Shown piece after piece: positions 16,010 through 33,090 of a stretch of DNA of 64,000 nt. Numbering within the stretch: the first letter of the stretch is position 1; each line of letters starts with the position of its first letter. Position numbers and translations under genes: made by a program. The notes below the pieces were generated by a model. The model worked only from the letters and a program-made list of their open reading frames with translations. It did not search any database and was not told the DNA's origin. Source of the stretch: Catenuloplanes atrovinosus (lineage in GTDB: Bacteria; Actinomycetota; Actinomycetes; Mycobacteriales; Micromonosporaceae); NCBI RefSeq assembly GCF_031458235.1, contig NZ_JAVDYB010000001.1:1881001-1945000 (forward strand), read 5' to 3'.

Positions 16010-17854
16010 GTGTACGTGTTTCGTGTCTTCGGATCGCTCGGTGTGCGGGGCGCGCGGATCACCGCGGCGCGGCAGCGGATCGTGCTGGCGATGCTCCTCC
16101 TGGAGGCCGGCCGCCCGGTGCACCCGAGCAGGCTGATCGACGCGGTGTGGGAGGACGCGCCGCCGTCCACCGCCAAGGCACAGATCCAGATCTGCATCTC
16201 CACGCTGCGCCGCGCGCTGGCCGACGCGGGCCTGCCCGGCCGGATCGTCACCGGCCCGGCCGGCTACCAGATCGCCACCGCACCGGGCGAGCTGGACCTC
16301 CAGGTCTTCAACGACCTGCTGGCCGACGGCCGCGCCGCGGTCCGGGACCAGCGTCCGGCGGACGCGGTGCTGGCGTACCGGCGGGCCGTCGCGCTCAGTC
16401 AGAACCCGCCGCTGTCCGGGGTGGAGAGCCGGGTGATCGAGGCGGCCGCGGCCCGGCTGGCCGAGCGGCGGATCAGCGCGGTCGAGGAGTTCTTCGAGGT
16501 GCAGTTGAGCCTCGGCCGGCACGACGACATCGTGGACGAGCTGACCGTGCTGGCCGCGGAGCATCCGCTGCGGGAGCGGCTGTGGCGGCAGCTCATCACC
16601 GCGCTCTACCGGGCCGGGCGGCGCGCGGAGGCGCTGGCGGCGTACCGGTCGGCGCGGCAGGCGTCTGTCGACGGTCTCGGCCTGGAACCGAGCCGGTCGC
16701 TGCGCCTGCTGGAGCGGATCGTGCTCAACGGCGACAGCATGCCCGGCCCGCCGGTGCACCCGGCGCCCGCCGCCGTGGCGGACCCGGACGTGTCGGTGCC
16801 GCGGATGACCCCGGCCGACATCCCGGACTTCACCGGCCACGCCGCGCTGATCCACCGGCTGCGCGACGCGCTGTGCGGCCGGGACGCCGCGCCGGAGGGC
16901 GGGTCCGCGCCGGTCGTGATCGTGACCGGCCGCGGCGGGATCGGCAAGACCACGCTCGCCGTGCACCTGGCCCACCAGCTCGCGGAGCACTTTCCGGACG
17001 GGCAGCTCTTCGCGCGGCTCGGCGACGGCGGCTCCACCGGTGCCGTGGTCGTCCAGGTGCTGGAGCGCTTCCTGCGCGCGCTCGGCGTGCCCGGACCGGC
17101 GATCCCGGACGATCTGGAGGCGCGCGCGGCCATGTTCCGCAGCGTCGTCGCGCGCCGCCGGGTGCTGGTGATCCTGGACGACGCGGCCGGTGAGCACCAG
17201 GTGCAGGCGCTGCTGCCGGCCAGCCCGGAGAGCGGGGTGATCGTGACCAGCCGCCGCCGGCTGGCCGGCATACCCGGGTCGCGGCTGGTGGACATCGGCG
17301 CGTTCAGCCCGGCGGACGGGCTGGAGCTGCTGGCCAAGACGATGGGCCGGCAGCGGGTCGACGCCGAGCCGGCCGAGGCCCGGCGCCTGGTGGAGCAGTG
17401 CGGGCGGCTGCCGCTGGCGCTGCGCATCGCCGCCTACCGGCTGAACGCGCGCCCGCACTGGCGCATCGCGCAGCTGGTCGAGCGGCTCACCGACGACAGC
17501 CGCATGCTGGACGAGCTGGTGCACGGCGGGATGGGCGTGCGGGCCAGCATCGCGCCCAGCTACCGCGGGGTGGGCCGGTCCGCGCAGCGGCTGCTGAGCC
17601 GGCTGTCCATCCTGGAGAGCGCGGACTTCCCGGGCCGGGTCGCCGCGCCGCTGCTGGAGGAGGACCCGGCGACCGCCGCCGAGGCGCTGGACGCGCTGGT
17701 CGACGCGCGCCTGGTCGACGTGGTGGCGCTGCCCGGCGCGGAGCCGCGCTACCGGCTGCACGAGCTGGTCAAGGCGTACGCGCGGGAATTGCTGGTCTCC
17801 GATGAGGAGTCGGCCGCGCGCATCGGCGCGCTGAAACGCCGGCTCTCCGCGTAA
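16010..17854 (+). CDS. AfsR-like SARP family regulator with NB-ARC ATPase
   Basis: 614 residues. Residues 1-90 form an OmpR-like winged helix (LIDAVWEDAPPSTAKAQIQI with CISTLRRAL), 95-240 the bacterial transcriptional activation domain (BTAD), and 265-600 an NB-ARC/AP-ATPase with P-loop GRGGIGKTT and Walker B VLVILDDA. It lacks the C-terminal TPR region of full-length AfsR, ending soon after the ARC region. SARPs activate biosynthetic genes by binding direct repeats near -35. GTG 16010 follows GGGGAGG. The sugar-nucleotide genes downstream are plausible targets. Confidence 0.87.
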   Translation: MYVFRVFGSLGVRGARITAARQRIVLAMLLLEAGRPVHPSRLIDAVWEDAPPSTAKAQIQICISTLRRALADAGLPGRIVTGPAGYQIATAPGELDLQVFNDLLADGRAAVRDQRPADAVLAYRRAVALSQNPPLSGVESRVIEAAAARLAERRISAVEEFFEVQLSLGRHDDIVDELTVLAAEHPLRERLWRQLITALYRAGRRAEALAAYRSARQASVDGLGLEPSRSLRLLERIVLNGDSMPGPPVHPAPAAVADPDVSVPRMTPADIPDFTGHAALIHRLRDALCGRDAAPEGGSAPVVIVTGRGGIGKTTLAVHLAHQLAEHFPDGQLFARLGDGGSTGAVVVQVLERFLRALGVPGPAIPDDLEARAAMFRSVVARRRVLVILDDAAGEHQVQALLPASPESGVIVTSRRRLAGIPGSRLVDIGAFSPADGLELLAKTMGRQRVDAEPAEARRLVEQCGRLPLALRIAAYRLNARPHWRIAQLVERLTDDSRMLDELVHGGMGVRASIAPSYRGVGRSAQRLLSRLSILESADFPGRVAAPLLEEDPATAAEALDALVDARLVDVVALPGAEPRYRLHELVKAYARELLVSDEESAARIGALKRRLSA

Positions 17855-18037: not shown

Positions 18038-19015
18038 GTGTCAGATAACAGCCAGCGCCGGTTCCGCCGGGCCGTCGTCACCGGGGGAGGGGGCTTCCTC
18101 GGTTCGTACACCTGCGAGATGCTGCTCGACCGCGGCACCGAGGTGATCTGCGTCGACAACTTCTCCAGCGGTCATCCGTCCTACATCGCCCACCTGCGCG
18201 ACCGGCCCGGCTTCACGTTCCTGCGCGCGGACGTGACCGAGGGGCTGGACGTGCCGTCCGGCGTGGACCTGGTGATGCACCTGGCCTCGCCGGCCTCGAT
18301 CCCCGAGTTCTACCGGCTGTCCATCGAGACGATGCTGGTCGGCAGCGCCGGCACGCACAACGCGCTGCGGCTGGCGCACCGGGAGAACGCGCGGTTCGTG
18401 CTGGCGTCCACATCGGAGGTCTACGGCGACCCGCTGCGGCACCCGCAGGACGAGGAGTACTGGGGCAACGTCAACCCGATCGGGCCGCGCGCCGTCTACG
18501 ACGAGGCCAAACGGTACGCGGAGGCGCTGACCACCGCGTACGCGAAGCGGCACGGCGTGAGCGTGGGCATCGCCCGGATCTTCAACAGCTACGGCCCGCG
18601 CATGCGCCCGGACGGCCGGGTGATCGCCGGGTTCGTGGCGCAGGCGCTGGCCGGCGCCCCGCTGACCGTGCACGGCGACGGCGCCCAGACCCGGTCGCCC
18701 TGCTACGCCGGGGACACCGTGCGCGGCCTGCTCGCGATCGCCGACAGCGACTATCCGCTGCCGGTCAACCTCGGCAACGTCCACGAGGTCACGGTCCTGG
18801 AGCTGGCGCTGCTGATCCGCGAGCTGGCCGGCAGCTCCTCGCCGATCGAGCACCGGCCGGCGGACGCGGACGACCCCCGGCAGCGGCGACCCGACATCGG
18901 CCGGGCGAAACGGGAGCTGGGCTGGGAGCCGCTGGTCGGGCTGGAGGAGGGGCTGCGGCGCACGGTCGAGGCGGCGCGGCGGGAACGGTCGGACAACCTG
19001 AGCGAGGTGGGGTAG
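18038..19015 (+). CDS. UDP-glucuronate decarboxylase-like NAD-dependent epimerase
   Basis: 325 residues of the extended SDR type. Cofactor motif TGGGGFLGS is at 15-23, STSEVYGDP at 124-132 and the catalytic YDEAK with Tyr154 and Lys158. Segments such as NPIGPRAVYDEAKRYAE and IARIFNSYGPRM are characteristic of UDP-glucuronic acid decarboxylase, which makes UDP-xylose and CO2; dTDP-glucose dehydratase is the main alternative. GTG 18038 follows GAGGGAG. The stop abuts the ATG of the UDP-glucose dehydrogenase gene, which would make its substrate, so the pair forms a UDP-glucose to UDP-xylose route. Confidence 0.82.
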   Translation: MSDNSQRRFRRAVVTGGGGFLGSYTCEMLLDRGTEVICVDNFSSGHPSYIAHLRDRPGFTFLRADVTEGLDVPSGVDLVMHLASPASIPEFYRLSIETMLVGSAGTHNALRLAHRENARFVLASTSEVYGDPLRHPQDEEYWGNVNPIGPRAVYDEAKRYAEALTTAYAKRHGVSVGIARIFNSYGPRMRPDGRVIAGFVAQALAGAPLTVHGDGAQTRSPCYAGDTVRGLLAIADSDYPLPVNLGNVHEVTVLELALLIRELAGSSSPIEHRPADADDPRQRRPDIGRAKRELGWEPLVGLEEGLRRTVEAARRERSDNLSEVG

Positions 19016-20344
19016 ATGTACGAGGTCTCCGTGGTCGGATGTGGCTACCTGGGCGTCACGCACGCGGCCGGCATCGCCGAGATGGGGCACCGCGTGATCG
19101 CGGTCGACATCGACGAGGCGAAGATCGCGGCGCTGGCGGACGGGCGGGTGCCGTTCTTCGAGCCGGGCCTGGAGGAGCTGGTGCGACGGCACCTGGCCAC
19201 CGGGCGCCTGGCGTTCACCACGTCGTACGAGGCGGCCGCGACCGCGGACGTGCACTTCGTCTGCGTGGGCACGCCGCAGCGCCCGGACGGCGCCGCCGAC
19301 CTCAGTCACCTGGACTCGGTGGCGGACCGGCTCGGGCCGTACCTGGTGAAGGAATGCCTGGTGGTGGGGAAGTCGACGGTCCCGTCCGGCACCGCGGCGC
19401 GGCTGGCCGAGATGCTGGCCGGCGTGGCGCCGGCCGGGAACCGCGTCACGGTGGCGTGGAACCCCGAGTTCCTGGCCGAGGGTACGGCCGTGGCCGACAC
19501 GCTGCGGCCGGACCGGCTGGTGCTGGGCGTGCCGGACGAGCGCGCCGAGCGGGTGCTGCGCGAGATCTACGCGCCGCTGATCGAGGCGGGCGTGCCGGTG
19601 GTGGTCTCGGACATCCCCACGGCCGAGGTGATCAAGTACGCGGCGAACTCGTTCATGGCCACCAAGCTGTCGTTCATCAACGCGGTCGCGGAGTTCTGCG
19701 AGGCGACCGGCGCGGACGTCCGGGTGGTCAGCGAGGCGCTCTCCTACGACCCGCGGATCGGCGGCCGGTTCCTCACCTCCGGGCTGGGGTTCGGCGGCGG
19801 CTGCGTGTCCAAGGACATCCGGGCGCTGCAGGCGCGCGCCCACGAGCTCGGCGTCGGGCACGCGTTCGCGTTGCTGGCCGAGGTCGACGCGATCAACCGG
19901 CGGTGCCGGGACCGGGTCCTCGAACTGCTGCGTAAGCAGTGCGGCGGCTCGTTCGCCGGTCGGCGGGTGGCGGTCCTCGGCGCCGCCTTCAAGCCGGGCA
20001 CCGACGACATCCGCGACTCGCCGGCGCTGCACGTGGCGGACGCGGTGCGCCGCGCGGACGGCGACGTGGTGGTCTACGACCCGCGGGCGATGGAGAACGC
20101 GCGCCGGGTGTACCCGGAGCTGAGCTACGCGCCGACCCTGCTGGACGCGGTGCGCGGCGCGGACACGGTCGCGGTGCTCACCGACTGGCCGGAGTTCGCC
20201 GCCGCCGACCCGGCGGTGCTCGGCGCCGAGGTGCGGCAGCGGAACATGGTGGACGGGCGGCAACTGCTCAACGCGGACCGGTGGCTCGCGGCGGGCTGGT
20301 CGTTCGCGGCACCGGGCCGGCCGGCGCTGCAGCCGGCGGCGTGA
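19016..20344 (+). CDS. UDP-glucose/GDP-mannose dehydrogenase family protein (UDP-glucose 6-dehydrogenase likely)
   Basis: 442 residues with the three-part nucleotide-sugar dehydrogenase layout: N-terminal NAD domain (VVGCGYLGV at 7-15), central domain with Lys207 and Asn211 (EVIKYAANSFMATKLSF), and C-terminal UDP-binding domain (LGAAFKPGTDD). The catalytic cysteine is Cys263 in GFGGGCVSKD; the canonical motif reads GFGGSCFPKD, so S, F and P are replaced by G, V and S. The enzyme oxidises a UDP-sugar to the uronate with two NAD+. It starts directly after the stop of the UXS-like gene. Confidence 0.87.
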   Translation: MYEVSVVGCGYLGVTHAAGIAEMGHRVIAVDIDEAKIAALADGRVPFFEPGLEELVRRHLATGRLAFTTSYEAAATADVHFVCVGTPQRPDGAADLSHLDSVADRLGPYLVKECLVVGKSTVPSGTAARLAEMLAGVAPAGNRVTVAWNPEFLAEGTAVADTLRPDRLVLGVPDERAERVLREIYAPLIEAGVPVVVSDIPTAEVIKYAANSFMATKLSFINAVAEFCEATGADVRVVSEALSYDPRIGGRFLTSGLGFGGGCVSKDIRALQARAHELGVGHAFALLAEVDAINRRCRDRVLELLRKQCGGSFAGRRVAVLGAAFKPGTDDIRDSPALHVADAVRRADGDVVVYDPRAMENARRVYPELSYAPTLLDAVRGADTVAVLTDWPEFAAADPAVLGAEVRQRNMVDGRQLLNADRWLAAGWSFAAPGRPALQPAA

Positions 20345-20649: not shown

Positions 20650-21651
20650 ATGGACTACACGACGCTGGGCCGGACCGGATTGCAGGTCAGCCGCCTCTGC
20701 CTGGGGACCATGACGTTCGGGCGGGAGATCGGCGAGGAGGCCAGTCACCGCCTGATCGAGCGCTTCGTGGACGCGGGCGGCACGTTCATCGACACGGCCG
20801 ACGGCTACAGCGACGGCCGCTCCGAGGAGATCGTGGGAAGCTGGCTGCGCGGCGCGTCGCGGCACGACGTCGTGCTGGCCACCAAGGTCCGCTTCGGCAG
20901 CGGCCTCAACCGCCGGGGCCTGGGCCGCAAGCACATCCTGCACGCCATCGACGAGAGCCTGCGCCGGCTCGGCACCGACTACGTGGACCTCTACCAGGTG
21001 CACATGTGGGACTACGGCACGCCGCTGGAGGAGACCATCGCGGCGCTGCGCACGGTCGTGGACGCGGGCAAGGTGCGCTACCTGGGGATCAGCAACGTCT
21101 GTGGCTGGCAGTTGCAGCGCGTGGTGGACGCCTGCCGCGCCACCGGCACCGCCCCGCTGGTGTCGTTGCAGCCGCTCTACAACCTGCTCGACCGGGACGC
21201 GGAGTGGGAACTGCTGCCGGTCTGCGTCAACGAGGGGCTGGGCGTGCTGCCGTACAGCCCGTTGCGCGGCGGCTGGCTGACCGGCAAGTTCCGGCGCGGC
21301 CCGCGCCCGGACGGGGAGGACACCCGGATCGCCGCCACACCCCCCGGGCCCAACTGGACCGAGACCTGGGAGAACTACGACAACGAGCGCACCTGGAACG
21401 TGGTCGACGCGCTGCTCGCGGTGGCGGACAAGGCCGGCCGCACGCCGGCGCAGACCGCGCTGAACTGGTTGCTGAGCCGTCCGGAGGTCACCGCGCCGAT
21501 CCTGGGCGCGCGCACGCCCGAGCAGTTGGACGACAACCTCGGCGCGCTCGGCTGGAGCCTGGGGCCGGAGGAACTGGCCCGGCTGGACGACGCGAGCACG
21601 CGGCCGGCGCCGTACCCGTACGCGCTTCTGGACGATCTCCGGGACGCCTAA
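20650..21651 (+). CDS. Aldo/keto reductase
   Basis: 333 residues with the AKR TIM-barrel pattern: start [37 protein letters not shown] containing catalytic Asp and Tyr, Lys in LATKVRFGS, and His in YQVHMWD complete the D-Y-K-H tetrad. The C-terminal cofactor region ([15 protein letters not shown]) indicates NADPH use. Such enzymes reduce aldehydes or sugar ketones. ATG 20650 follows GAGGGG. The complex upstream region suggests independent regulation from the sugar-nucleotide pair. Confidence 0.88.
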
Positions 21652-23145: not shown

Positions 23146-23979
23146 ATGTCGGAACTCGAGATGGAGGTCGGCCTGCTCGGGCCGATCAAGGTCTGGAGCG
23201 CCGGTTCGGAGCGGTACGCCGGCCCGCCCCGGCAGCGGGAGGTGCTGGCCGTGCTGGCGCTGCACCGCGGCCGGGAGATGTCGGTCGGGCAGATCACCGC
23301 GGCGGTCTGGGGCGCCCGCGCACCGAGTAGCGCGGAGAACCTGGTGCACACGTACGTCGGGCGCCTCCGCCGCGCGCTGGCCGGAGTCCGGGGTGACCCG
23401 GGCTCCGGCACCCCGCTGCGCTCGCACCGGCCGGGCTACGAACTGGTCCTGGACCCGGCCGGGCTGGACGTGGCCCGGTTCGAGGAGCGGGCGCGGCGCG
23501 CGCAGGCCGCGTTCGCCCGGGCGGACCTGCCCGCCGCCCGGGCCGCGCTCCAGGAGGGGCTGGCCGAGTGGCGCGGCCCGGCGCTGTACGAGGCGTGCGG
23601 GCCGCTGGCCGAGGCGGAGCGCGCCCGGCTGGAGGAGATGCACCGGGAGATGGCCGAGGAGTTGGTGTACGCGCGGCTGGTGATGGGCGACCACCACGGC
23701 CTGGTGCCGGATCTGAGGCGGATGACCGTGGAGGACCCGCTGCGCGAGCGGCTGTGGGCGCTGCTGCTGGTGGCGCTGGACCGCGCGTCCCGGCGCGCCG
23801 AGGCGCTGCACGCGTACGACGAGGCCCGGAAGGCGCTGGTCAGCCGGCTCGGCGTGGAGCCGGGACCGGAGCTGCAGGCGCTGCACCGCGACCTGCTGCG
23901 CGCGGTCCCGGCCGTGGTCTCCCCGGCCGCCCGCCCCTACCCGGGCTGGACGCCGATCGGCGCGCCCACCTCGTCGTAG
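23146..23979 (+). CDS. SARP family regulator (short form)
   Basis: 277 residues: an N-terminal OmpR/PhoB-type winged helix (QITAAVWGARAPSSAENLVH, then TYVGRLRRAL) and a C-terminal BTAD (from about 105; EDPLRERLWALLLVALDRAS, RAEALHAYDEARKALVSRLG). No ATPase domain, so this is the ActII-ORF4 size class that activates a neighbouring biosynthetic cluster. ATG 23146 follows GGGAGAG. Its 3' end overlaps the convergent GT2 gene by 43 bases, so its last residues (PYPGWTPIGAPTSS) are read on the opposite strand of that gene. Confidence 0.87.
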   Translation: MSELEMEVGLLGPIKVWSAGSERYAGPPRQREVLAVLALHRGREMSVGQITAAVWGARAPSSAENLVHTYVGRLRRALAGVRGDPGSGTPLRSHRPGYELVLDPAGLDVARFEERARRAQAAFARADLPAARAALQEGLAEWRGPALYEACGPLAEAERARLEEMHREMAEELVYARLVMGDHHGLVPDLRRMTVEDPLRERLWALLLVALDRASRRAEALHAYDEARKALVSRLGVEPGPELQALHRDLLRAVPAVVSPAARPYPGWTPIGAPTSS

Positions 23980-24956
23980 GCGCGGCGGAACCGGCGGGAC
24001 AGCAGCCACTTCGCCAGCCCGTACGCCGCGCCCAGCGCCACCGCGAGGTTCACCACGAGCTGGACGCCCGTGAAGTACAGCCAGAACGCGACGCCGCGCC
24101 GGCGGCGCACCCACCGGTAGAGCGCCCGGTCGCACGCGTACGACGCGGCCAGCAGCGCCGCCGGCAGCGCCAGCCACCAGGGCCCGGCCGCCACCGGCGC
24201 GGCGATCGCGAGCACGCCGCCGAGTGCCAGCACCGCGCCGGCCGCGCGCGGGCCGGTGGCGAACCCGCCGGGCAGGCCCCGCCGGCGGATGAACAGCGGC
24301 ACGCCGTCCCGGGTGCGGCGGAACACCTTGCGCAGGATCAGCCGGAGCGAGTCGTCGTGGTCGTGGTCGCCGCTGACCCGCGACGTGCTCCACACCCGCC
24401 ACCGCCGGGTGATCCGCAGCCCGTAGTCGTGGTCCTCGATGTCGCGCAGCGCCGCGTTGAACGGGCCGACCTCGGCGAACACCCGTGCCCGGAGCACGCA
24501 GATCGCGGTGTTCATCGCGTGGATCGGGCCCTCGCTCTCCGCGAACCAGAAGTGCTGGTGCAGGCAGCGGTACTCCTCGACGCGGCTGTCCCGGATCAGC
24601 GGGGTGTCGGTGTAGGTGCCGCAGACCGCGCCCAGCGCGGGGTCCGCGCGCAGCAGCTCCACCGCGTTCGCGATCGCGTCCGGGCGCAGCGCCACGTCCG
24701 AGTCGAGGAAGCAGATGAGCTCGCCGGCCGCGGCCGCCGCGCCGACGTTGCGGGCCACGGCCGCGCCGCCGTTCGACGGCGTGCTCAGCACCCGGGCGCC
24801 GTGCGCCTCGGCCACGGCGACGGAGTCGTCGGTGCTGTGGTCGTCGACGACCAGGACCTCGATCGGCCGGTACGTCTGGGCCCGCAGCGCGCCCAGGCAC
24901 AGCGGCAGGGTCCGTGCGTAGTTGTAATTCGGAATGACGACGGATACCAGAGTCAC
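23937..24956 (-). CDS. Family 2 glycosyltransferase with C-terminal membrane helices
   Basis: 339 residues. The GT-A fold begins VSVVIPNYNYARTLPLCLGA, with nucleotide-sugar DDHSTDDS near 38-45 and the metal-binding DSD in CFLDSDVALRP. A later IEDHDYGLRI carries the probable acid/base ED. Residues 240-310 contain two or three hydrophobic helices, so the enzyme is membrane-attached and likely uses a polyprenyl or lipid acceptor. It is a diverged paralogue of the protein at 25086, from which it is transcribed divergently. Confidence 0.87.
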   Translation of the reverse strand: MTLVSVVIPNYNYARTLPLCLGALRAQTYRPIEVLVVDDHSTDDSVAVAEAHGARVLSTPSNGGAAVARNVGAAAAAGELICFLDSDVALRPDAIANAVELLRADPALGAVCGTYTDTPLIRDSRVEEYRCLHQHFWFAESEGPIHAMNTAICVLRARVFAEVGPFNAALRDIEDHDYGLRITRRWRVWSTSRVSGDHDHDDSLRLILRKVFRRTRDGVPLFIRRRGLPGGFATGPRAAGAVLALGGVLAIAAPVAAGPWWLALPAALLAASYACDRALYRWVRRRRGVAFWLYFTGVQLVVNLAVALGAAYGLAKWLLSRRFRRAYDEVGAPIGVQPG

Positions 24957-25085
24957 GCGCTCAGCCTAATTGTCCGCCCTGAATGGGGCCTGGACTACCC
25001 AGCGTTGCTTTCCGGAGAATGTCGCGCTCCGTAATAGAGGTCCAATCCAGGTCGACTCCAGTGCGGGCCAATAACCTTTCCGGTC

Positions 25086-26066
25086 ATGAGCGGAACGCGC
25101 GAGACGGTGTCCGTCGTCATTCCCAACTTCAACCAGTCGCGGACGCTCGCCGCCTGTGTCGAGGCGGCGCTGGCGCAGACGTACCAGCCGATCGAGGTGA
25201 TCGTCGCGGACGACCGCAGCACGGACGACTCCCGGCGGATCGCCCGGGCGCTGCCGTGCACGCTCGTCGAGCTGCCGGTCAACCGCGGCGCGGCGGCCGC
25301 CCGCAACGCCGGGGTGGCGGCGAGCCGCGGCGACGTGGTGTTCTTCGTGGACTCCGACATCGTGCTGCGCCCGGACGCGGTGGCCCAGGCGATGCGGGTG
25401 CTGCGCGAGGACCCGGCGTGCGGGCTGGTGCAGGGCATCTACGACAAGCAGCCGCTGTACGGCGACGGCGTGGTCGAGACGTACAAGACGCTGCACGAGT
25501 ACTTCTGGCGGCGCCGCTCGGCGGGCGTCGTCCGGATGACGCTGTTCGCGCTGGGCGCGATGCCGCGCGAGGTCTTCGACGAGACCGGCGGCTTCGACGA
25601 GCGGGTCCGGGAGATCGAGGACGTGGTCTTCGGCACCCGGATGTCGGACCGGTGGACGATCCGGCTCACCGACACCGTGGTCGGCCGGCACGACGACGTC
25701 GACCGGCTGCTGCCGATGCTGCGCACCCAGTTCCGGCGCGCCCGCATGCTCACCAGCGCGGTGGCCGGCGGCGGCCGCAACCGGGTCCGCGCGTTCTCCC
25801 CGACCGGCCTGCTGGCCTCGGTCGCGGCGCTGGCCACGCTGCCGCTGGCGCTGCTGTCGCCGTGGCTGCTGCTGGTCCCGGCCGGGCTGCTGGCGATCTT
25901 CCTGGCCAGCGAGCGCGGGCTGCTGGCGTTCGTCGGGCGGGAACGCGGGCCGGTCTACACGATCTCGTTCGCGGCGCTGCACTACGCGGTGTACGTGATG
26001 ACCGTGGCCGGGGCCGCGGCCGGCGTGCCCGGGCTGGCCCTGCGCGCGGTCGGCGGGTCGCGGTGA
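25086..26066 (+). CDS. Family 2 glycosyltransferase with C-terminal membrane helices
   Basis: 326 residues, same layout as its divergent neighbour: VSVVIPNFNQSRTLAACVEA, DDRSTDDS, VFFVDSDIVLRP, and IEDVVFGTRM, then hydrophobic helices near 235-320. The sugar donor is unknown. Its stop overlaps the GTG of the next gene (TGA within GTGA at 26063-26066), so it heads a coupled operon of membrane-glycan genes running to at least 32686. The 129-base divergent gap upstream has no palindrome I would trust. Confidence 0.87.
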   Translation: MSGTRETVSVVIPNFNQSRTLAACVEAALAQTYQPIEVIVADDRSTDDSRRIARALPCTLVELPVNRGAAAARNAGVAASRGDVVFFVDSDIVLRPDAVAQAMRVLREDPACGLVQGIYDKQPLYGDGVVETYKTLHEYFWRRRSAGVVRMTLFALGAMPREVFDETGGFDERVREIEDVVFGTRMSDRWTIRLTDTVVGRHDDVDRLLPMLRTQFRRARMLTSAVAGGGRNRVRAFSPTGLLASVAALATLPLALLSPWLLLVPAGLLAIFLASERGLLAFVGRERGPVYTISFAALHYAVYVMTVAGAAAGVPGLALRAVGGSR

Positions 26067-27004
26067 GCGACCGGTGGCGGGCCGTGCTGCGCGCCGCGGC
26101 CGTGCTGGTGTTCGCGGTCGCGGTCACGGCCGGCCTGGTCACCGCGCTGCGCGGCCAGGACTGGTCGGTCGCGGCCCGGATTCTCACGCCCGGCAGCGTG
26201 GGCCTGGTCGCCGCCGCGTTCGCGGTGAACTCGGTGGCGATGGTCTTCTCCTGGCTGTCCTGGCGGGTGCTGCTGGTCGACCTGGGCGGCCCGGTGGACA
26301 CCGTCACGTCCGCGCGGATCTTCTTCGTCGGCTTCCTGGCCAAGTTCGCGCCCGGCCGGGTGTGGACGCTGCTGGCCAACATCAGGATGGGCGCCTCGGC
26401 CGGGGTCGGCGCGGCCCGGATGGCGGCCGTCTACGCCCTCACCGTCGTGATCAGCACGCTCACCGGGCTCGCGCTCGGCACCGTCGCCGGGCTGGCCGTC
26501 CTGGGCCGGACCGCGCTGGTGCTGGCGCTGGCCGCCGTGCCGGTGGTGGTCTGCCTGGCCCGGCCGGACCTGGTCAACCGCGGCGCCGGCCGGCTGGCCC
26601 GGCTGCTGCGCCGCCCGCCGCCGGTGATGTCCGCGTCCGGCCGCGGCGTGCGGTGGTCGATCGTCGCGCAGACCGTCTGCTGGGTGGTGGCCGGCGTCCA
26701 GTTGTGGCTGCTCGCCGTCGCCCAGGGCGCGCCGCCGCTGCGCACGCTGCCGATCAGCATCGGCGCGTTCGCGCTCGGCACGGTCGCGGGCGTGGCCGTG
26801 GTGCTGCTGCCGGACGGGCTCGGCGTGCGCGAGGGCGTGCTGCTGGTCGCGCTCGCCACGGTTCTGCCGCTGCCGGCCGCCGGGGTCGTCACGGTGGCCA
26901 GCCGGCTGCTCTGCACGCTCAGTGAGATCGCCGTCGCCGGCGTGGCGGTGCTCGTCTCCGAGGTGGTCAAACGCCGGCAACCCCACTACGCGAACGCGAG
27001 GTGA
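26063..27004 (+). CDS. Flippase-like membrane protein (LPG synthase TM / UPF0104 family)
   Basis: 313 residues with about seven to eight hydrophobic helices. The segment FFVGFLAKFAPGRVWTLLAN matches the conserved (F/Y)xxxPG(R/K) region of the lysylphosphatidylglycerol synthase transmembrane family, which in glycan clusters is annotated as a flippase-like protein; PDGLGVREGVLL near the end fits the second signature. It may move a lipid-linked sugar across the membrane. The start is GTG 26063, overlapping the previous stop by four bases. Confidence 0.82.
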   Translation: MSDRWRAVLRAAAVLVFAVAVTAGLVTALRGQDWSVAARILTPGSVGLVAAAFAVNSVAMVFSWLSWRVLLVDLGGPVDTVTSARIFFVGFLAKFAPGRVWTLLANIRMGASAGVGAARMAAVYALTVVISTLTGLALGTVAGLAVLGRTALVLALAAVPVVVCLARPDLVNRGAGRLARLLRRPPPVMSASGRGVRWSIVAQTVCWVVAGVQLWLLAVAQGAPPLRTLPISIGAFALGTVAGVAVVLLPDGLGVREGVLLVALATVLPLPAAGVVTVASRLLCTLSEIAVAGVAVLVSEVVKRRQPHYANAR

Positions 27005-27006
27005 CC

Positions 27007-28428
27007 ATGTCCGAACTCATCAGCATCGAGGAGTGCGAGCAGCTGACCGCGAAGCAGGTGCACGACCTGTATCGCACGTACGTCAGCCGCAGCCAGGTCT
27101 CCCTGATGACGTCCTTCGGCTTCGGCCGCGAGCTCGTCGACCGGGCCGAGGGCTGCTGGGTGCACATGCGCGACGGCCGCCGGATTCTGGACTTCTCCGG
27201 CGGGGTCGGCGTGCTCAACCACGGGCACAACCACCCGCGGATCCTCGCCGCCCGGCAGCGCTTCGGCCAGGAGCGGCGGATGGAGGTGCACAAGGCGTTC
27301 TTCTCGCCCTACCTGGCCGCGCTGAGCCACAACGTGGCCGCGGTGCTGCCCGGTGACCTGAACATCTCGTACTTCCCGAACTCCGGTGCGGAGGCGAACG
27401 AGGGCGCCATCAAGATGGCGTACAAGTACCACGGCGGCAAGCGGAACACGATCATGCGGGCCGACATCAGCTTCCACGGCAAGACGCTGGGGGCGGGCAG
27501 CCTGACCGGCTCGGCGGAGAACCACTTCCGGTTCCCCGGCCTGCCCGGCATCGTGATCTACCCGTACGGTGACCTGGACGGGCTGCGCGCGGCGGTGGCC
27601 CGGGCGCGGACCGCGGACGGCGGGTGCGACGTCTACGCGATCCTGGTGGAGCCGTTCAGCGCGTCCAGCCTGCGGCACTGGTCCGAGGCGGCGCTGCGCG
27701 AGCTGCGGGCGTTCTGCACGGCCGAGGACATCGTGCTGATCTTCGACGAGATCTACACCGGGTGGGGCAAGACCGGCAGCCTCTTCTACTTCATGCGGCA
27801 CGAGGGGCTGGTGCCGGACATCCTCACCTACTCGAAGTCGCTCGGCGGCGGCAAGGCGTCGATCTCCGGCTACACCGCGCGCGAACCGGTGTTCCGCAAG
27901 GCCTACGACCGGCTCAACGACGTAATCCTGCACAGCACCACGTACTACGGCTTCGGCGAGGAGACCGCGACCGCGATCGAGGCGGTCAACGTGGTGGTGG
28001 AGGAGGACTTCCCGGGCCGGGCGCGGGAGATCGAGCGGGTGCTGGCGCCCGGGCTGGAGCGGCTGCGCCGGGCCCACCCGGACGCGATCGACCGGGTGGC
28101 GGGCACCGGCGCGCTGCACGGCGTCTTCCTGGCCGGCGGGCCGCGCCTGTTCAACCTGGCCGGCAAGCTGGTGCCCGGCTTCGCGCACGACCCGCAGTTC
28201 AACACCAAGCTGGTCACCCTGTCGGTGATCGCGCACCTGTACCGCGAGCACAACATCATGACCTACTACAGCCCGAACGTGGAGAACCCGCTGATGGTGG
28301 CGCCGACGCTCGCGGCCGGGCCGGCCGAGGTCAAACTCTTCCTGGACGCGCTGGACGCCACGCTGTCCAAGGGGCTGACCCGGCTGCTGACCGGCTTCGT
28401 CCGGGAGAAGGTGTCCTCGGCATGGTGA
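27007..28428 (+). CDS. Class III pyridoxal-phosphate aminotransferase
   Basis: 473 residues of the fold-type I class III family (ornithine, putrescine or diaminobutyrate aminotransferase group). PLP-binding features: SGAEANEGAIKMA, the aspartate in LIFDEIYTGWG, and the Schiff-base lysine (Lys277) in TYSKSLGGGK. It would transfer an amino group to an aldehyde or keto carbon, here perhaps a sugar or a lipid-bound aldehyde. ATG 27007 follows GAGG; a GTG at 27001 overlaps the upstream stop. The next gene starts inside this one (7-base overlap), confirming operon membership. Confidence 0.88.
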   Translation: MSELISIEECEQLTAKQVHDLYRTYVSRSQVSLMTSFGFGRELVDRAEGCWVHMRDGRRILDFSGGVGVLNHGHNHPRILAARQRFGQERRMEVHKAFFSPYLAALSHNVAAVLPGDLNISYFPNSGAEANEGAIKMAYKYHGGKRNTIMRADISFHGKTLGAGSLTGSAENHFRFPGLPGIVIYPYGDLDGLRAAVARARTADGGCDVYAILVEPFSASSLRHWSEAALRELRAFCTAEDIVLIFDEIYTGWGKTGSLFYFMRHEGLVPDILTYSKSLGGGKASISGYTAREPVFRKAYDRLNDVILHSTTYYGFGEETATAIEAVNVVVEEDFPGRAREIERVLAPGLERLRRAHPDAIDRVAGTGALHGVFLAGGPRLFNLAGKLVPGFAHDPQFNTKLVTLSVIAHLYREHNIMTYYSPNVENPLMVAPTLAAGPAEVKLFLDALDATLSKGLTRLLTGFVREKVSSAW

Positions 28429-29465
28429 CCTCGGTGCTGGTCACCGGCGGCAGCGGCGTGCTCGGCGGCGCGCTGGTCGCCCGGTTCGCCGCGGCCGGGC
28501 TCGAGGTGTCCAGCGTGGACCTGCGGCCACCGGCGAACCCGGTCCCGGGCGTGCGGTACGAGACCGCGGACATCCGGGACCGGGCGGCGGTGCGGCGCGC
28601 CATGGCGGGCGTCCGGACGGCCGTCCACTGTGCCGCCGCGCTGCCCAGCTACCCGGCCGCGGACATCCGGTCGATCATCGTCGACGGCACCGGGACGGTG
28701 CTGGGCGCGGCGCGCGAGGCGGGGCTGTCCCGGGTCGTGCACATCTCCTCCACGGCCGTCTACGGGCTGCCGGACACGGTGCCGACCACGGAGGAGTACC
28801 CGCACCGGCCGGTCGACGCGTACACCGCGGCGAAGGCGGAGGCCGAGCGCGTGGTGGACCGGTTCCGCGCGGACGGCCTGCCGGTGCCGGTGCTGCGCCC
28901 GAAGACGTTCGTCGGGCCGGGCCGGATGGGCCTGTTCGCGATGCTGTTCGAGTGGGCCGACGAGGGCCGCCACTTCCCGGTGCTCGGCCGCGGCGACGTG
29001 CGCATCCAGATGTGCGCGATGGACGACCTGGTCGACGCGGTGAGCACGGTGCTGACCGCGGACGAGGCGGTCGCGAACGACACGTACAACATCGCCGCGG
29101 AGCGGTTCGGCACCATCCGGGAGGACTTCCAGGCCGTGCTGGACGCGGCCGGGCACGGACGGCGCGTGGTCTCGGTGCCGGCCCGGCCCGCGGTGGCGCT
29201 GCTCGGGCTGCTGCGCCGCACGGGCGCGTCGCCGGTGTACGACCGCCTGCTCCACAAGCTGCTGGCCGACTCGTACGTGAGCATCGAGAAGGCGAAGCGG
29301 CGGCTGGGCTTCGCGCCCCGCTACTCCAACCGCGACGCGCTGCTGCGCACGTACGCCTGGTGGCGTGAGAACCGGGACGCGGCCGTCGCCCCCGCGTCCG
29401 CCGGGCGCACCAGCAACCGGCCGTGGCGGCAGGGCGCGCTGAGCGCCGCCAAGGTCTTCTTCTGA
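28422..29465 (+). CDS. NAD-dependent epimerase/dehydratase (extended SDR)
   Basis: 347 residues: TGGSGVLGGAL cofactor loop at 8-18, ISSTAVYGLP near 110 and the active-site Y-x3-K in YTAAK. The C-terminal half contains YNIAAERFGTIREDFQAV, as in sugar-nucleotide and hopanoid/steroid-type epimerases. It likely oxidises or epimerises the sugar or aglycone made by this operon, acting with the aminotransferase before it (a keto intermediate followed by transamination is an attractive but unproven pairing). Its ATG overlaps the aminotransferase stop. Confidence 0.85.
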   Translation: MVTSVLVTGGSGVLGGALVARFAAAGLEVSSVDLRPPANPVPGVRYETADIRDRAAVRRAMAGVRTAVHCAAALPSYPAADIRSIIVDGTGTVLGAAREAGLSRVVHISSTAVYGLPDTVPTTEEYPHRPVDAYTAAKAEAERVVDRFRADGLPVPVLRPKTFVGPGRMGLFAMLFEWADEGRHFPVLGRGDVRIQMCAMDDLVDAVSTVLTADEAVANDTYNIAAERFGTIREDFQAVLDAAGHGRRVVSVPARPAVALLGLLRRTGASPVYDRLLHKLLADSYVSIEKAKRRLGFAPRYSNRDALLRTYAWWRENRDAAVAPASAGRTSNRPWRQGALSAAKVFF

Positions 29466-29484
29466 CTCGCCGGAGGTGCACGAC

Positions 29485-30435
29485 GTGTACGCCGACACCA
29501 CTACCCCGACCGTGACCGGGCCGGACCCCGCACCGACGCGGGAACGCACCCGGCTCCGCGACCTCCTCCGACTGCTGCGCCCCGGGCAGTGGGCCAAGAA
29601 CCTGCTCGTCGTCTCGGTGCCGCTGCTGGACACCCGGGCCTGGAGCGCCGGTGGCGCGGCCCGGCTCGCGCTGGCCGTGGTGGCGTTCACCGTCGCCTCC
29701 GGCCTGGTCTACATCGTCAACGACATCGCCGACCGGCACCGCGACCGGGTCCATCCGGTGAAGCGGTCCCGGCCGATCGCCTCCGGCCGCGTCTCGGTAC
29801 GGGCGGCGCTGCTGCTCGCCGCCGCGCAGGCCGCGCTGCTGGCCGGCATCCTGGCCGGTCAGGGCTGGGGGTCGTCCTGGCCGGTGCTGGCCTACCTGGT
29901 GCTCAGCGCGGCCTACAGCGGCAAGCTCAAACACCTGCCGATCCTGGACGTGTTCTCGGTCGCGGCCGGGTTCGTGCTGCGGCTGCTGCAGGGCTACCTG
30001 GCGCTCGGCGAGGAGGTCTCCGGCTGGCTGGTCACCGTCGTGTTCACGCTCTGCCTGCTGCTGACCACCGGTAAGCGGCGGCACGAGCTGCAGGTGTCGA
30101 GCGCGGCGCACCGGCCGGCGCTGGGCGGCTACAGCGTCCAGCTCACCGAGCACCTGATGCTGCTCAGCGCGGTCATCACGATCGGCTCGTACCTGCTCTA
30201 CGTGCGCACCGAGGCGCCGCTGGGCCCGTACGCGCTGGCGGCGTCCGTGGCCTCGCTGCCGTTCGCGCTGTTCGGCGTGTTCCGGTACCTGCAACTGGTG
30301 ATGATCCAACAGGTCGGCGGCAGCCCGGTCCGGCTGCTGCTCCGCGACCCGGCAATCATGATCAACGCCGGGTTGTGGTGCGGCCTGTCCGCCGCGTTCC
30401 TGCTGGCGGCCGCGCGGACGGCGGGACCGGCATGA
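29485..30435 (+). CDS. UbiA family prenyltransferase (decaprenyl-phosphate phosphoribosyltransferase-like)
   Basis: 316 residues with eight or nine membrane helices. The first aspartate-rich motif reads NDIADRHRDRVHPVKRSRPI, the second region YSGKLKHLPILDVF. These are the features of the actinobacterial UbiA branch that attaches phosphoribose to decaprenyl phosphate (as in arabinan synthesis). Here the acceptor may be polyprenyl phosphate too, giving a lipid-linked sugar. GTG 29485 is preferred because GGAGG ends 8 bases before it; the GTG at 29476 overlaps that ribosome site. Its stop overlaps the next ATG in ATGA. Confidence 0.85.
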   Translation: MYADTTTPTVTGPDPAPTRERTRLRDLLRLLRPGQWAKNLLVVSVPLLDTRAWSAGGAARLALAVVAFTVASGLVYIVNDIADRHRDRVHPVKRSRPIASGRVSVRAALLLAAAQAALLAGILAGQGWGSSWPVLAYLVLSAAYSGKLKHLPILDVFSVAAGFVLRLLQGYLALGEEVSGWLVTVVFTLCLLLTTGKRRHELQVSSAAHRPALGGYSVQLTEHLMLLSAVITIGSYLLYVRTEAPLGPYALAASVASLPFALFGVFRYLQLVMIQQVGGSPVRLLLRDPAIMINAGLWCGLSAAFLLAAARTAGPA

Positions 30436-31571
30436 CCACCGGCCCGCTGACGTCCGAGCGCACCGAGGCGCCCGCGGCCCGCGCCGGCCGCTGGTGCTGG
30501 GGCACCCGGCTGGTCGTGGCGGCCGGCGTGCTGTGGCTGGCGTTCACGCTCGCGCACCGGCTGCTGTCCGGCCGCACCTGGCTGTGGACCGCGGCCGACC
30601 TGGTGCCGCCGATCGCGTTCCTGCTGGTGCCGGCCGGGCTGCTGGCGGTCGCCCGGCTCGCCCGCCCGGCCTGGAAGCTGGTGGTGCTGCTGGCCGTGAC
30701 CGCGCTGCTGCTCGGCGCCGGGCTCAGCGGCGTGTCACCCACCGCGCCCTGGCGGGACGCGCCGGACGCGCCGGCCGGCGCGATCCGCGTGGTCTCCTGG
30801 AACACCGAGTTCTGGCACCAGGAGGACGACCCCGGCGAGTTCTACCGGTACCTGCGGGCCCAGGACGCGGACGTCTACCTGCTCCAGGAGTACGTGTTCC
30901 TGGCGGACCGCCAGCCGCGCCGGATCGACGACCTGGCCCGGCTGCGCACCGAGTTCCCCGGCTACCAGATCTTCGCGGAGAGCGAGCTGGTCACGCTCTC
31001 CCGGCTGCCGGTCGTCTCGTCCCGGACCATCGACGCGCTGCCGTGGATGTCCGCGGCCACGCACAGCCTGCCGCCCGGGGACACCGACTTCCCGCCGTAC
31101 TGGTCGGTCAAGACGCTCCGCACCGACGTGCGGGCAGGCGACCGCACCGTCTCGCTCTACAACACCCACCTGCCGGTGCCGCTGGCGATCGACCGCAACC
31201 CGTTCGGCGGCGAGTTCCACCGCATCATCCGCGAGCAGCACGGGCGGCGGCAGGCGAACATGCGGGCGCTCGAGGCGGACCTGGACCGCAACGCCGGGCC
31301 GGTGGTGGTGGCCGGGGACCTGAACGCGACCCGCGCGATGGCGCTGCTGCGGCCGCTGACCGACCGGCTCACCGACGCCGGCGCGGAGACGCTCCGCTCG
31401 CCGTACCCGGTCACCTGGGGTTTCGGCGGGGTGCCGCTGTGGCGGCTGGACTGGGCGTTCGCCTCGGACGGCGTGCGCGTCCACGAGTACCGCTTCGACG
31501 ACGCGGCCGGGCTCTCCGACCACCCGGCGCAGAACATGCTGATCTCCCTGTCCGGAAAGGACCCCGCATGA
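30432..31571 (+). CDS. Membrane-anchored endonuclease/exonuclease/phosphatase family protein
   Basis: 379 residues. Three hydrophobic helices occupy roughly 30-105, then an EEP (DNase I-like) catalytic domain: VVSWNTEFW with metal Asn/Glu, LLQEYVF with catalytic Glu, YNTHLPVP with His, VAGDLNATR with the Asp-x-Asn pair, and the final SDHPAQNM His. The active site is complete. With its anchor it most likely acts as a phosphodiesterase or phosphatase on a lipid-linked or extracytoplasmic substrate rather than DNA. ATG 30432 overlaps the UbiA stop; the following GT4 also starts in an ATGA overlap. Confidence 0.85.
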   Translation: MTTGPLTSERTEAPAARAGRWCWGTRLVVAAGVLWLAFTLAHRLLSGRTWLWTAADLVPPIAFLLVPAGLLAVARLARPAWKLVVLLAVTALLLGAGLSGVSPTAPWRDAPDAPAGAIRVVSWNTEFWHQEDDPGEFYRYLRAQDADVYLLQEYVFLADRQPRRIDDLARLRTEFPGYQIFAESELVTLSRLPVVSSRTIDALPWMSAATHSLPPGDTDFPPYWSVKTLRTDVRAGDRTVSLYNTHLPVPLAIDRNPFGGEFHRIIREQHGRRQANMRALEADLDRNAGPVVVAGDLNATRAMALLRPLTDRLTDAGAETLRSPYPVTWGFGGVPLWRLDWAFASDGVRVHEYRFDDAAGLSDHPAQNMLISLSGKDPA

Positions 31572-32686
31572 TCCCGCAGTACGACCTCACCGTGGCGCTG
31601 ACCTACTACCTGCCGTACGTGAGCGGCCTCACCGAGACGGCGCGCAACGTGGCCGAGGGGATGGCCGCGCGCGGCTGGCGGGTCGCCGTGCTGGCCGCGC
31701 AGCACGACGCGAAGCTGCCGCGCCAGGAGCGGATCGCCGGCGTGGACGTCTACCGCGCGCCGGTGCTGGCGAACCTGCACCGGGCGTTCCTCAGCCCCGC
31801 GTACCCGCTGCTGGCCCGCCGGCTGGCCCGGCGCTCCCGGCTGCTGCACCTCAACGTGCCGATGGCCGAGGCCGCGCTGGTCTCCCGGGTGGCCGGTGAC
31901 ACGCCGATCGTGACCATGGTGCACATCGACCTCTACCTGCCGCCCGGGCTGCTCGGCCGGGCCGCGGTGTTCGCCTCCGACCAGACCACCCGGGCCGCGA
32001 TCAAGCGCTCCGCCGCGGTGGTGGCCTACAGCGACGATCAGGCGTCCGCGTCGAAGTTCTGGCCGCTGATGCGCCGCCACAACTTCACGCCGATCGCGGC
32101 GCCGTGCACCGACCGGCGCGGCGGCCGGCCGGTCTACCGCCAGGGCGAGGGCCTGCACGTCGGATTCCTCGGCCGGATCGTCGAGGACAAGGGCATCGAA
32201 TACCTGGTGCAGGCGTTCCAGCGGATCACCGACCCGTCGGCGCGGCTGCTGATCGCCGGCAACTACAAGACCGTGGCCGGCGGCAGCAACGTCGCCCAGG
32301 TGCGGGCCGCGATGCGCGGCGACTCCCGCATCCGGCTGCTCGGCGAGCTGCGCGGCCAGGAGATCGACGACTTCTACGCGTCGATCGACGTGTTCGCGTT
32401 GCCGTCGGTCGCCGAGTCGTTCGGCATCGTGCAGGCGGAGGCGATGATGGCCGGCGTGCCCTCGGTCACCACCGATCTGCCCGGCGGGCGCTACCCGGTG
32501 ACGTCCACCGAGTTCGGCCGCGTGGTGCCGCCGCGGGACGTGCCCGCGCTGGAGAAGGCGATCCTGGAGCTGGCCGACGCGCCGGCGCAGTGGCGGGAGG
32601 AGAAGGCGGCCGAGGCCCGGCGCCGCTTCTCCGTCGAGACCTGCCTGGACGCCCACGAGAAGCTGTTCAACTCCCTGCTGGACTGA
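31568..32686 (+). CDS. Family 4 glycosyltransferase
   Basis: 372 residues of GT-B fold. The N-terminal acceptor domain contains the loop YYLPYVSGLTETARNVAEGM; the C-terminal donor domain has VGFLGRIVEDKGIEYLVQAF and the EX7E motif ESFGIVQAE. It is a retaining enzyme using a nucleotide-sugar (UDP or GDP). It probably extends the lipid-linked glycan started by the GT2 enzymes, and could use UDP-xylose or UDP-glucuronate from the 18-20 kb genes. ATG 31568 overlaps the EEP stop by four bases. Confidence 0.88.
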   Translation: MIPQYDLTVALTYYLPYVSGLTETARNVAEGMAARGWRVAVLAAQHDAKLPRQERIAGVDVYRAPVLANLHRAFLSPAYPLLARRLARRSRLLHLNVPMAEAALVSRVAGDTPIVTMVHIDLYLPPGLLGRAAVFASDQTTRAAIKRSAAVVAYSDDQASASKFWPLMRRHNFTPIAAPCTDRRGGRPVYRQGEGLHVGFLGRIVEDKGIEYLVQAFQRITDPSARLLIAGNYKTVAGGSNVAQVRAAMRGDSRIRLLGELRGQEIDDFYASIDVFALPSVAESFGIVQAEAMMAGVPSVTTDLPGGRYPVTSTEFGRVVPPRDVPALEKAILELADAPAQWREEKAAEARRRFSVETCLDAHEKLFNSLLD

Positions 32687-32724: not shown

Positions 32725-33090
32725 ATGAAGATCCGCTCCATCCTGCTCGCGCTGCCGATCGCGGCCGCGCTCACGCTGGCGCCCGGCCTGGCCGCCCCGG
32801 CCTCGGCCGCCAGCACCTGCGAGTTCACCCGCACGCTCTGCCTCTGGGAGAATCCGAGTTACGGCGGCGCGCGCTTCACCGTGCAGGCGCTCAACCCGTC
32901 CGTCGGCACTTGCGTCGACCTGGCCTGGCACGGATGGGGGTCCGGCCGCGCGGAGTCGGCCCGCAACACCGCGAGCACCGCCGCGACGCTCTACACCGGC
33001 ACCGCGTGCACCGGCACGGCGTACCAGATCCCGCCGGGCGCATCGATCCCGTCGATCGCCTTCAACTCCAACAGCGTCTACGTGTACTGA
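32725..33090 (+). CDS. Secreted peptidase inhibitor family I36-like protein
   Basis: 121 residues. A clear Sec signal peptide (MKIRSILLALPIAAALTLAP, cleavage after ASA near 30) leads into a small Cys-containing beta domain (CEFTRTLCLWENPSYGGARF) of the I36/beta-gamma-crystallin-like type found in Streptomyces metalloproteinase inhibitors. Four cysteines remain in the mature part (CEF, LCL, TCV, ACT), enough for two disulfides. ATG 32725 follows ACGGAGGA. It closes the glycan gene run, just before a strong hairpin, and may be exported alongside the product. Inhibitor activity is inferred from the fold only. Confidence 0.75.
   Translation: MKIRSILLALPIAAALTLAPGLAAPASAASTCEFTRTLCLWENPSYGGARFTVQALNPSVGTCVDLAWHGWGSGRAESARNTASTAATLYTGTACTGTAYQIPPGASIPSIAFNSNSVYVY

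Follow-up and report, generated by a model that had tools for sequence, protein, structure and literature searches.

The 64,000-nt stretch of the Catenuloplanes atrovinosus genome analysed here (NZ_JAVDYB010000001.1 of GCF_031458235.1, positions 1,881,001 to 1,945,000; hereafter the window) carries seven closely packed genes on the + strand (25086-32686). They encode a family 2 glycosyltransferase (GT2), an LPG_synthase_TM membrane protein, a class III pyridoxal phosphate-dependent aminotransferase (AT), an extended short-chain dehydrogenase/reductase (SDR), a UbiA-fold enzyme, an endonuclease/exonuclease/phosphatase (EEP) hydrolase and a family 4 glycosyltransferase (GT4). The cluster is a real, widespread and patchily inherited accessory pathway. 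We suggest that this mobile actinobacterial gene set probably assembles an unusual nitrogen-bearing pentose on a membrane lipid, lengthens it and exports it. On balance we favor, as its product, a lipid-linked and probably aminated pentofuranose with a short glycan on that sugar. The gene set, its co-inheritance, the active-site residues of UbiA and the predicted EEP fold were computed directly from the sequences.

Operon layout and conservation of the gene set

Open reading frames, domains and junctions confirm the tight coupling of the seven genes that the first-pass annotation proposed as an operon. The junctions measure, in order, -4, -4, -7, +10, -4 and -4 bp, meaning overlaps of 4 to 7 bp and one gap of 10 bp. 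With the gene calls of our in-house caller, all 6 operon junctions are of 10 bp or less, against 7 of the 25 other same-strand neighbor pairs in the window. The GT2 (25086-26066; PF00535, E 1e-30) ends in two hydrophobic C-terminal segments, and the LPG_synthase_TM protein (26063-27004; PF03706, E 1.7e-10), a candidate flippase, has 8 hydrophobic segments. They are followed by the AT, which forms its own subfamily (27001-28428; PF00202, E 8.5e-58), the SDR of NAD epimerase/dehydratase type (28422-29465; PF01370, E 7.9e-35), the UbiA-fold polyprenyl-phosphate phosphoribosyltransferase-like enzyme (29476-30435; PF01040, E 1.4e-23), the membrane-anchored EEP hydrolase (30432-31571) and the GT4 (31568-32686; PF13692, E 2e-27). 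Membrane segments are predicted in the GT2, UbiA, LPG_synthase_TM and EEP proteins alike. The source genome has 8.9 Mb in a single contig.

One scan of an 84,980-species collection returned 212 stretches with AT relatives at E 1e-3 or better, from which the best 80 were kept. Together with the window, 3 loci from a plasmid collection and 7 further genome loci, they make up 91 loci, all chosen through the AT; L049 and L053 were dropped as copies of L058 and L076, and further duplicates may remain. In 20 of the 91 loci a flank is shorter than 7 kb, and gene absence there carries little weight. The SDR family is present in 88 loci, GT2 in 85 (1 to 4 copies where present), EEP and UbiA in 81 each and LPG_synthase_TM in 72 (counting fragments; 67 by the main family alone), with the aldo/keto reductase (45), SARP regulators (43; families 7, 9 or 32) and GT4 (18) as less frequent members. 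Restricting the count to the 71 loci whose flanks both reach 7 kb or more gives 69 for SDR, GT2 and EEP, 67 for UbiA, 59 for LPG_synthase_TM, 37 for the aldo/keto reductase, 36 for SARP and 15 for GT4. The next gene after the AT is the SDR in 87 of 91 loci, separated by a gap of 29 bp or less in 83 of those 87. Within the best 80 of the 212 loci, both SDR and UbiA are found in 71, and SDR, UbiA, EEP and GT2 together in 65.

The neighborhood comparison that had been proposed in the first-pass annotation revealed a conserved gene set, but the exact seven-gene order is found in only 1 of the 90 other loci (L052, same genus), and a strict order as the conserved unit was rejected. Nor do the seven genes themselves hold as the unit, since their order and the outermost genes differ between loci, and L162 and L163 are clusters that lack the AT. 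The larger recurring set comprises the seven genes plus a second GT2, SARP regulators and an aldo/keto reductase.

From 61 related genomes, the same 11 contain the SDR (E <=1e-40), the EEP (E <=1e-40) and the cluster-type UbiA (E <=1e-56, at least 41% identity), and in 8 further ones the UbiA matches are weaker, at E 1.6e-35 or worse. An AT at least 60% identical is present in 9 of these 11 core-bearing genomes and in none of the other 50. The two core genomes without it (G005 and G012) have UbiA, SDR, GT2, EEP and GT4 together. Among the 11, the EEP gene has an internal stop codon in G002 and lies on a separate contig in G022 and G036. At the level of the class, 394 genomes gave the AT (E <=1e-100) in 6, the SDR (E <=1e-40) in 6 and both in 5. 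The SARP control and the patchy distribution suggest a specialized product and not a housekeeping wall polymer. Genome G026 has two AT copies (L050 and L051), separated by about 13 kb and surrounded by a double cluster.

UbiA and SDR

The best solved relative of the window UbiA is Rv3806c of Mycobacterium tuberculosis (PDB 8j8j, E 9.6e-24). Both proteins are identical at 11 of 14 checked positions of the phosphoribosyl pyrophosphate (PRPP), Mg2+ and pyrophosphate site, the residue list coming from the available part of PMC10994848, with D74 and D81 added from the motif. Among the cluster UbiAs, Y70, N73, D74, D77, D81, R90 and Y138 are the same in 75 of 75 aligned sequences; R22 (70 of 70) and K28 (73 of 73) are invariant where ungapped, and K87 and K143 are kept in 73 and 74 of 75. 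Most PRPP-site residues of Rv3806c being preserved, the earlier label of a decaprenyl-phosphate-phosphoribosyltransferase-like enzyme stands, and with such a site UbiA would very probably form polyprenyl-phosphate-ribose from PRPP.

Trees of UbiA and SDR proteins were built with FastTree from 30 sequences each, midpoint-rooted and read for topology only (a split L079 SDR piece was used in one). The cluster UbiAs form a clade apart from eight canonical synthases, and in its own genome the window UbiA matches only itself at E 1e-10 or better. Three loci devoid of UbiA, L079 (with a short upstream flank), L085 and L100, belong to genomes with a canonical decaprenyl-phosphoryl-phosphoribose synthase (DPPRS) over cut-off, which is a weak hint that the canonical synthase supplies the ribose lipid there; this check covered 14 of the 80 loci. 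The remaining UbiA-less loci have short flanks (L066, L081, L089, L104 and L122), a split gene (L093) or another operon type (L047). Split genes are the UbiA of L093 and the SDR of L079.

The window SDR contains the motifs TGGSGVLG and YTAAK, which correspond to the TGxxGxxG and YxxxK of ORF13-type enzymes. In an alignment of 85 sequences, 157 positions are at least 90% conserved, including Y134 and K138. ORF13 belongs to the three-component pathway described in 2024, composed of a polyprenyl phosphoribose synthase, a flippase and a GT-C glycosyltransferase with optional epimerases; in Citrobacter youngae O2, this single SDR sets the addition of ribofuranose versus xylofuranose, according to mutant and NMR data (PMC11127046, available part).

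SDR relatives with 44-45% identity were found by tblastn near UbiA genes (36-37%) in haloarchaeal plasmids (L151, L152, L161 and L160), the haloarchaeal UbiA being 33% identical to the cluster UbiA over the full alignment. In the UbiA tree as in the SDR tree, these haloarchaeal sequences lie closest to those of the cluster. The annotated loci L151, L152 and L161 add a PHP phosphatase, an LPG_synthase_TM protein and a DolP-mannosyltransferase-like protein (Pfam assignments for L151 only), and perhaps represent an archaeal pentose pathway. More distant SDRs adjoin UbiA in the actinobacterium G217 and lie no more than 7 kb from it in two rhizobial plasmids, with a GMC oxidoreductase present. Since the SDR-UbiA relatives in haloarchaea and rhizobia have other partners, we assign the SDR to polyprenyl-phosphate-ribose, which is its likely substrate.

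Aminotransferase

In the 61 related genomes, AT orthologs are 60-81% identical, and the next among the matches listed reach at most 38%. The protein scores 196.4 bits with PF00202 (cut-off 30.5), and K279, in the S-K-x-x-G-G-G lysine region, is invariant in 11 AT sequences, as expected for a class III enzyme. The best-scoring characterized relatives are PigE and putrescine aminotransferase.

Two AT relatives, L047 and L157, branch together with a pair support of 0.964. They belong to a second AT operon type (L047:12696-18295 and L157:7772-13439) devoid of UbiA and SDR, in which a GT2 and a flavin oxidoreductase precede the AT, and a small protein and then a GMC oxidoreductase follow it. The GT2 is ArnC/PgfS-like in L157, the one locus checked for this likeness, and L047 corresponds to it by Pfam domains and gene order. 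In a Neorhizobium plasmid, a HAD-UbiA, a DprE1-like oxidase, an EamA protein, an SDR and a class III AT are found in a row. Taken together, these gene settings point to an oxidized sugar linked to lipid phosphate as the AT substrate, and the keto form of polyprenyl-phosphate-ribose is a somewhat better candidate than not. By analogy, C3 would be the aminated carbon, which we propose tentatively.

EEP hydrolase and export

The EEP model (pLDDT 92) shows three N-terminal helices followed by the EEP domain. From 131 sequences, three helices are predicted in 53, two in 59, one in 13, four in 5 and none in 1. Judged by positive charges, 43 of the 53 three-helix proteins are predicted N-in/C-out, with 2 ties and 8 opposite. 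The positions N, E, H, D/N and D-H, which we take to be the catalytic ones, are mostly conserved within the EEP fold. The window EEP found no match by phmmer at E up to 1, and profile searches gave only weak EEP matches (best 3.7e-5). No substrate was derived from the structure, as the PDB matches mix sphingomyelinase, AP endonuclease, TDP2 and others at close Z, and the enzyme could be either a phosphatase or a phosphodiesterase.

The EEP gene comes after GT2 79 times and after UbiA 6 times, which makes the extended product a more likely substrate than the product of UbiA. A role as polyprenyl-phosphate-ribose 5-phosphatase, considered in view of the PHP, HAD or other phosphatases of other systems, was demoted on this arrangement and the predicted outside location. 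The same predicted topology would fit a carrier recycler, as the first-pass annotation had offered. A release role outside the cell is doubtful, the least certain step of all, and we rated it slightly lower once GT-C candidates had turned up at other places in the genome.

For the export itself, the operon offers a single transporter-like gene, that of LPG_synthase_TM (PF03706), and no MATE/SMR-type flippase. A domain search of the eight glycan genes at 23937-32686 found no GT-C; in the other loci, families 18, 19, 24, 25, 35 and 37 are not GT-C either (single neighbors being only partly covered).

Proposed pathway and alternatives

From these data we infer the reactions, the aminated carbon and the product as follows. 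UbiA would move phosphoribose from PRPP onto polyprenyl phosphate, and the 5-phosphate would be removed. The extended SDR would then oxidize a ring hydroxyl of polyprenyl-phosphate-ribose, most likely at C3 if it resembles the C. youngae SDR that converts Ribf to Xylf, with C2 as a possible position. The AT would intercept the keto-sugar and yield an amino-deoxy-pentofuranose; in clusters that lack it, the plain epimer would be the outcome. GT2 and GT4 would extend the lipid-linked sugar inside the cell, the LPG_synthase_TM protein may flip the product, and the outward-facing EEP may cleave a phosphoester outside, releasing glycan and/or carrier. The polyprenyl-linked sugar that is oxidized, aminated, extended and flipped, as guessed in the first-pass annotation, is therefore the best reading here too, drawn from the UbiA residues, the AT-SDR tandem, the neighbors of the relatives and the usual presence of a flippase-like LPG_synthase_TM gene. 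A more specific version, in which a pentofuranose oxidized and aminated on polyprenyl phosphate is the primer of a SARP-controlled secreted amino-oligosaccharide freed by the outward-facing EEP, seems unlikely, and the same GT-C candidates led us to lower it a little.

Several observations weigh against the proposed pathway. In the window UbiA, 3 of the 14 Rv3806c positions differ (Q135S, Y157F and K208P, the last in a less certain alignment), and its scores of 183.0 and 176.9 bits are below the NCBIfam equivalog cut-offs of 234 (NF008977) and 207 (NF008978), for which reason we call it DPPRS-like and not DPPRS. Canonical synthases are present in 3 of 3 UbiA-less and 5 of 11 UbiA-bearing genomes, with a chance of 0.15 (kinship ignored, hence indicative only). 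For a distant SDR of Azospirillum, the 15 kb stretch that contains it gave no UbiA match. The Neorhizobium AT shares only 33% identity and, in a small midpoint-rooted tree, falls beside a paralogue from its own genome, while its DprE1-like neighbor (E 1.3e-45 to DprE1) scores 348.7 against an NCBIfam cut-off of 500. PigE and putrescine aminotransferase act on other amines or aldehydes, thus a terminal aldehyde (C5) is possible. The clusters L162 and L163, from two related genomes, hold UbiA, SDR and EEP and not the AT, which may act on another substrate; given these clusters, it may be an optional tailoring enzyme. No 5-phosphatase is evident, as the EEP is predicted outside and seldom follows UbiA. 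Lastly, matches over cut-off to PMT_2 (5) and GT87 (7) occur in the source genome, all of them outside the window, and an ordinary outside transfer by a GT-C encoded elsewhere is possible.

The alternative that survives best, still rather unlikely, is an ordinary system of the three-component type, in which the SDR only epimerizes polyprenyl-phosphate-ribose to xylose or arabinose, the AT provides an amino sugar or a different amino substituent along a separate route, and a GT-C encoded elsewhere moves the pentose onto its target outside the cell. It would explain why L162 and L163 carry UbiA, SDR, GT2, EEP and GT4 without the AT, why this AT subfamily is missing from the SAT1 plasmid cluster and why the haloarchaeal SDR and UbiA occur with no AT, and it agrees with the GT-C candidates elsewhere in the genome and with the epimerase nature of C. 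youngae ORF13 (PMC11127046, available part). However, the AT and SDR genes overlap or nearly touch in most loci, and 9 of the 11 core-bearing related genomes keep the AT. A GT-C is also missing from the operon, and the PMT_2 and GT87 matches of the genome all lie outside the window.

It is improbable, although compatible with PigE and putrescine aminotransferase being chain-end enzymes, that the AT acts at C5, where dephosphorylation and oxidation of the primary alcohol to an aldehyde would precede amination to a 5-amino-5-deoxy-pentose on the lipid. The ATs of L047 and L157 sit with a GMC oxidoreductase, a family including primary-alcohol oxidases, which also speaks for C5. On the other hand, the SDR partner is of the extended epimerase type whose analogue acts on a ring hydroxyl, and an outward-facing EEP cannot easily strip a 5-phosphate inside the cell. 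Very unlikely is a UbiA with another acceptor or donor in the synthesis of a soluble natural product (e.g. a glycosylated amino sugar) without polyprenyl carrier, which would suit the SARP genes in 43 of 91 loci, the patchy distribution and the UbiA scores under the NCBIfam cut-offs, but not the conserved PRPP-site residues, the membrane segments predicted in four of the proteins or the DolP-mannosyltransferase-like protein beside the related haloarchaeal UbiA-SDR pair.

Neighboring genes

A second, divergent GT2 (23937-24956, - strand; PF00535, E 1.3e-29) lies outside the span of the first-pass annotation and groups with the first GT2 in family 2. Next to it, a SARP (BTAD) regulator was found at 23146-23979 (+; PF03704, E 1.6e-34), and a larger SARP/NB-ARC regulator (16010-17854, +; BTAD and NB-ARC domains), from family 7, recurs at homologous clusters. 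An aldo/keto reductase of family 6 (20650-21651, +; PF00248, E 2.5e-77) is a probable optional member. Upstream of the cluster, an epimerase/dehydratase gene and then a UDP-glucose/GDP-mannose dehydrogenase gene (18038-20344) may supply a nucleotide sugar. Directly 3' of the GT4 gene, 32725-33090 encodes a small protein that looks secreted and has a peptidase inhibitor I36 domain. A large CHAT-domain ORF occupies 8491-11406 (-), where the local G+C is 0.62-0.66 against mostly 0.71-0.78 elsewhere.

Some clusters in other genomes contain possible tailoring genes, encoding a sulfotransferase (family 24, 7 loci; e.g. L046:22787-23485) or a polysaccharide deacetylase (family 35, 4 loci; e.g. L131:8093-8794). 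Sulfotransferases are also found near two haloarchaeal loci.

Comparison with known systems

The 4-amino-4-deoxy-L-arabinose (Arn) pathway aminates a UDP-sugar with a DegT-type aminotransferase. The shared outcome would be a flipped amino-pentose linked to lipid phosphate, whereas here the proposed amination would take place on the lipid, starting from PRPP, by a class III AT. The haloarchaeal loci L151, L152 and L161 resemble the cluster in their related SDR, UbiA and flippase-like gene, and differ by a PHP phosphatase instead of the EEP, a DolP-mannosyltransferase-like protein and no AT.

With the mycobacterial decaprenyl-phosphate-arabinose pathway (Rv3806c, Rv3807c and DprE1/DprE2; available parts of PMC10994848 and PMC11127046), the cluster shares the Rv3806c-like active-site residues of UbiA. 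Unlike that pathway, the operon has a single extended SDR and an AT, with no gene for an FAD oxidase or a PAP2-type phosphatase; a DprE1/DprE2 arabinose pathway in the operon was rejected, as there is no FAD oxidase among its proteins. A profile search gave two PF04030 matches in the source genome.

The claim that no characterized cluster has this content is partly sustained: the exact set was not found described, but its core of polyprenyl phosphoribose synthase, SDR epimerase and transporter is characterized (PMC11127046, available part). The gene set has no report among the open-access literature matches listed, which exclude supplements, and the main text of PMC11127046, as far as available, mentions neither 'aminotransferase' nor 'Streptomyces'. 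A match of the whole set to a known pathway, named in the first-pass annotation as grounds for refutation, is thus found for the core and not for the AT and EEP.

If the proposed pathway is correct, amino-pentofuranoses would arise from PRPP while the sugar sits on its lipid carrier, a route absent among the literature matches listed, and dozens of actinobacteria would probably encode an undescribed aminated glycan or glycolipid (SDR and UbiA in 71 of the 80 AT loci). The 2024 pentofuranose pathway would be tied to actinobacteria and haloarchaea with new auxiliary enzymes, giving a twist on a recently described microbial surface decoration. The AT, SDR and UbiA form a defined set that can be assayed with farnesyl phosphate.

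The closest known system is the three-component pentofuranose pathway, known from ORF12-15 of C. youngae O1/O2. Compared with its description in the available part of PMC11127046, the cluster shares a polyprenyl phosphoribose synthase-like UbiA, an SDR with epimerase-type motifs (likened to ORF13 by motif and description) and a membrane transporter. Unlike it, the operon includes a class III AT, an EEP hydrolase, several GT2 and a GT4; LPG_synthase_TM replaces the MATE/SMR transporter, and neither a HAD phosphatase domain nor a GT-C is found in the operon. The AT, the EEP, the several Leloir-type glycosyltransferases and the operon without GT-C are new features on a recently recognized core.

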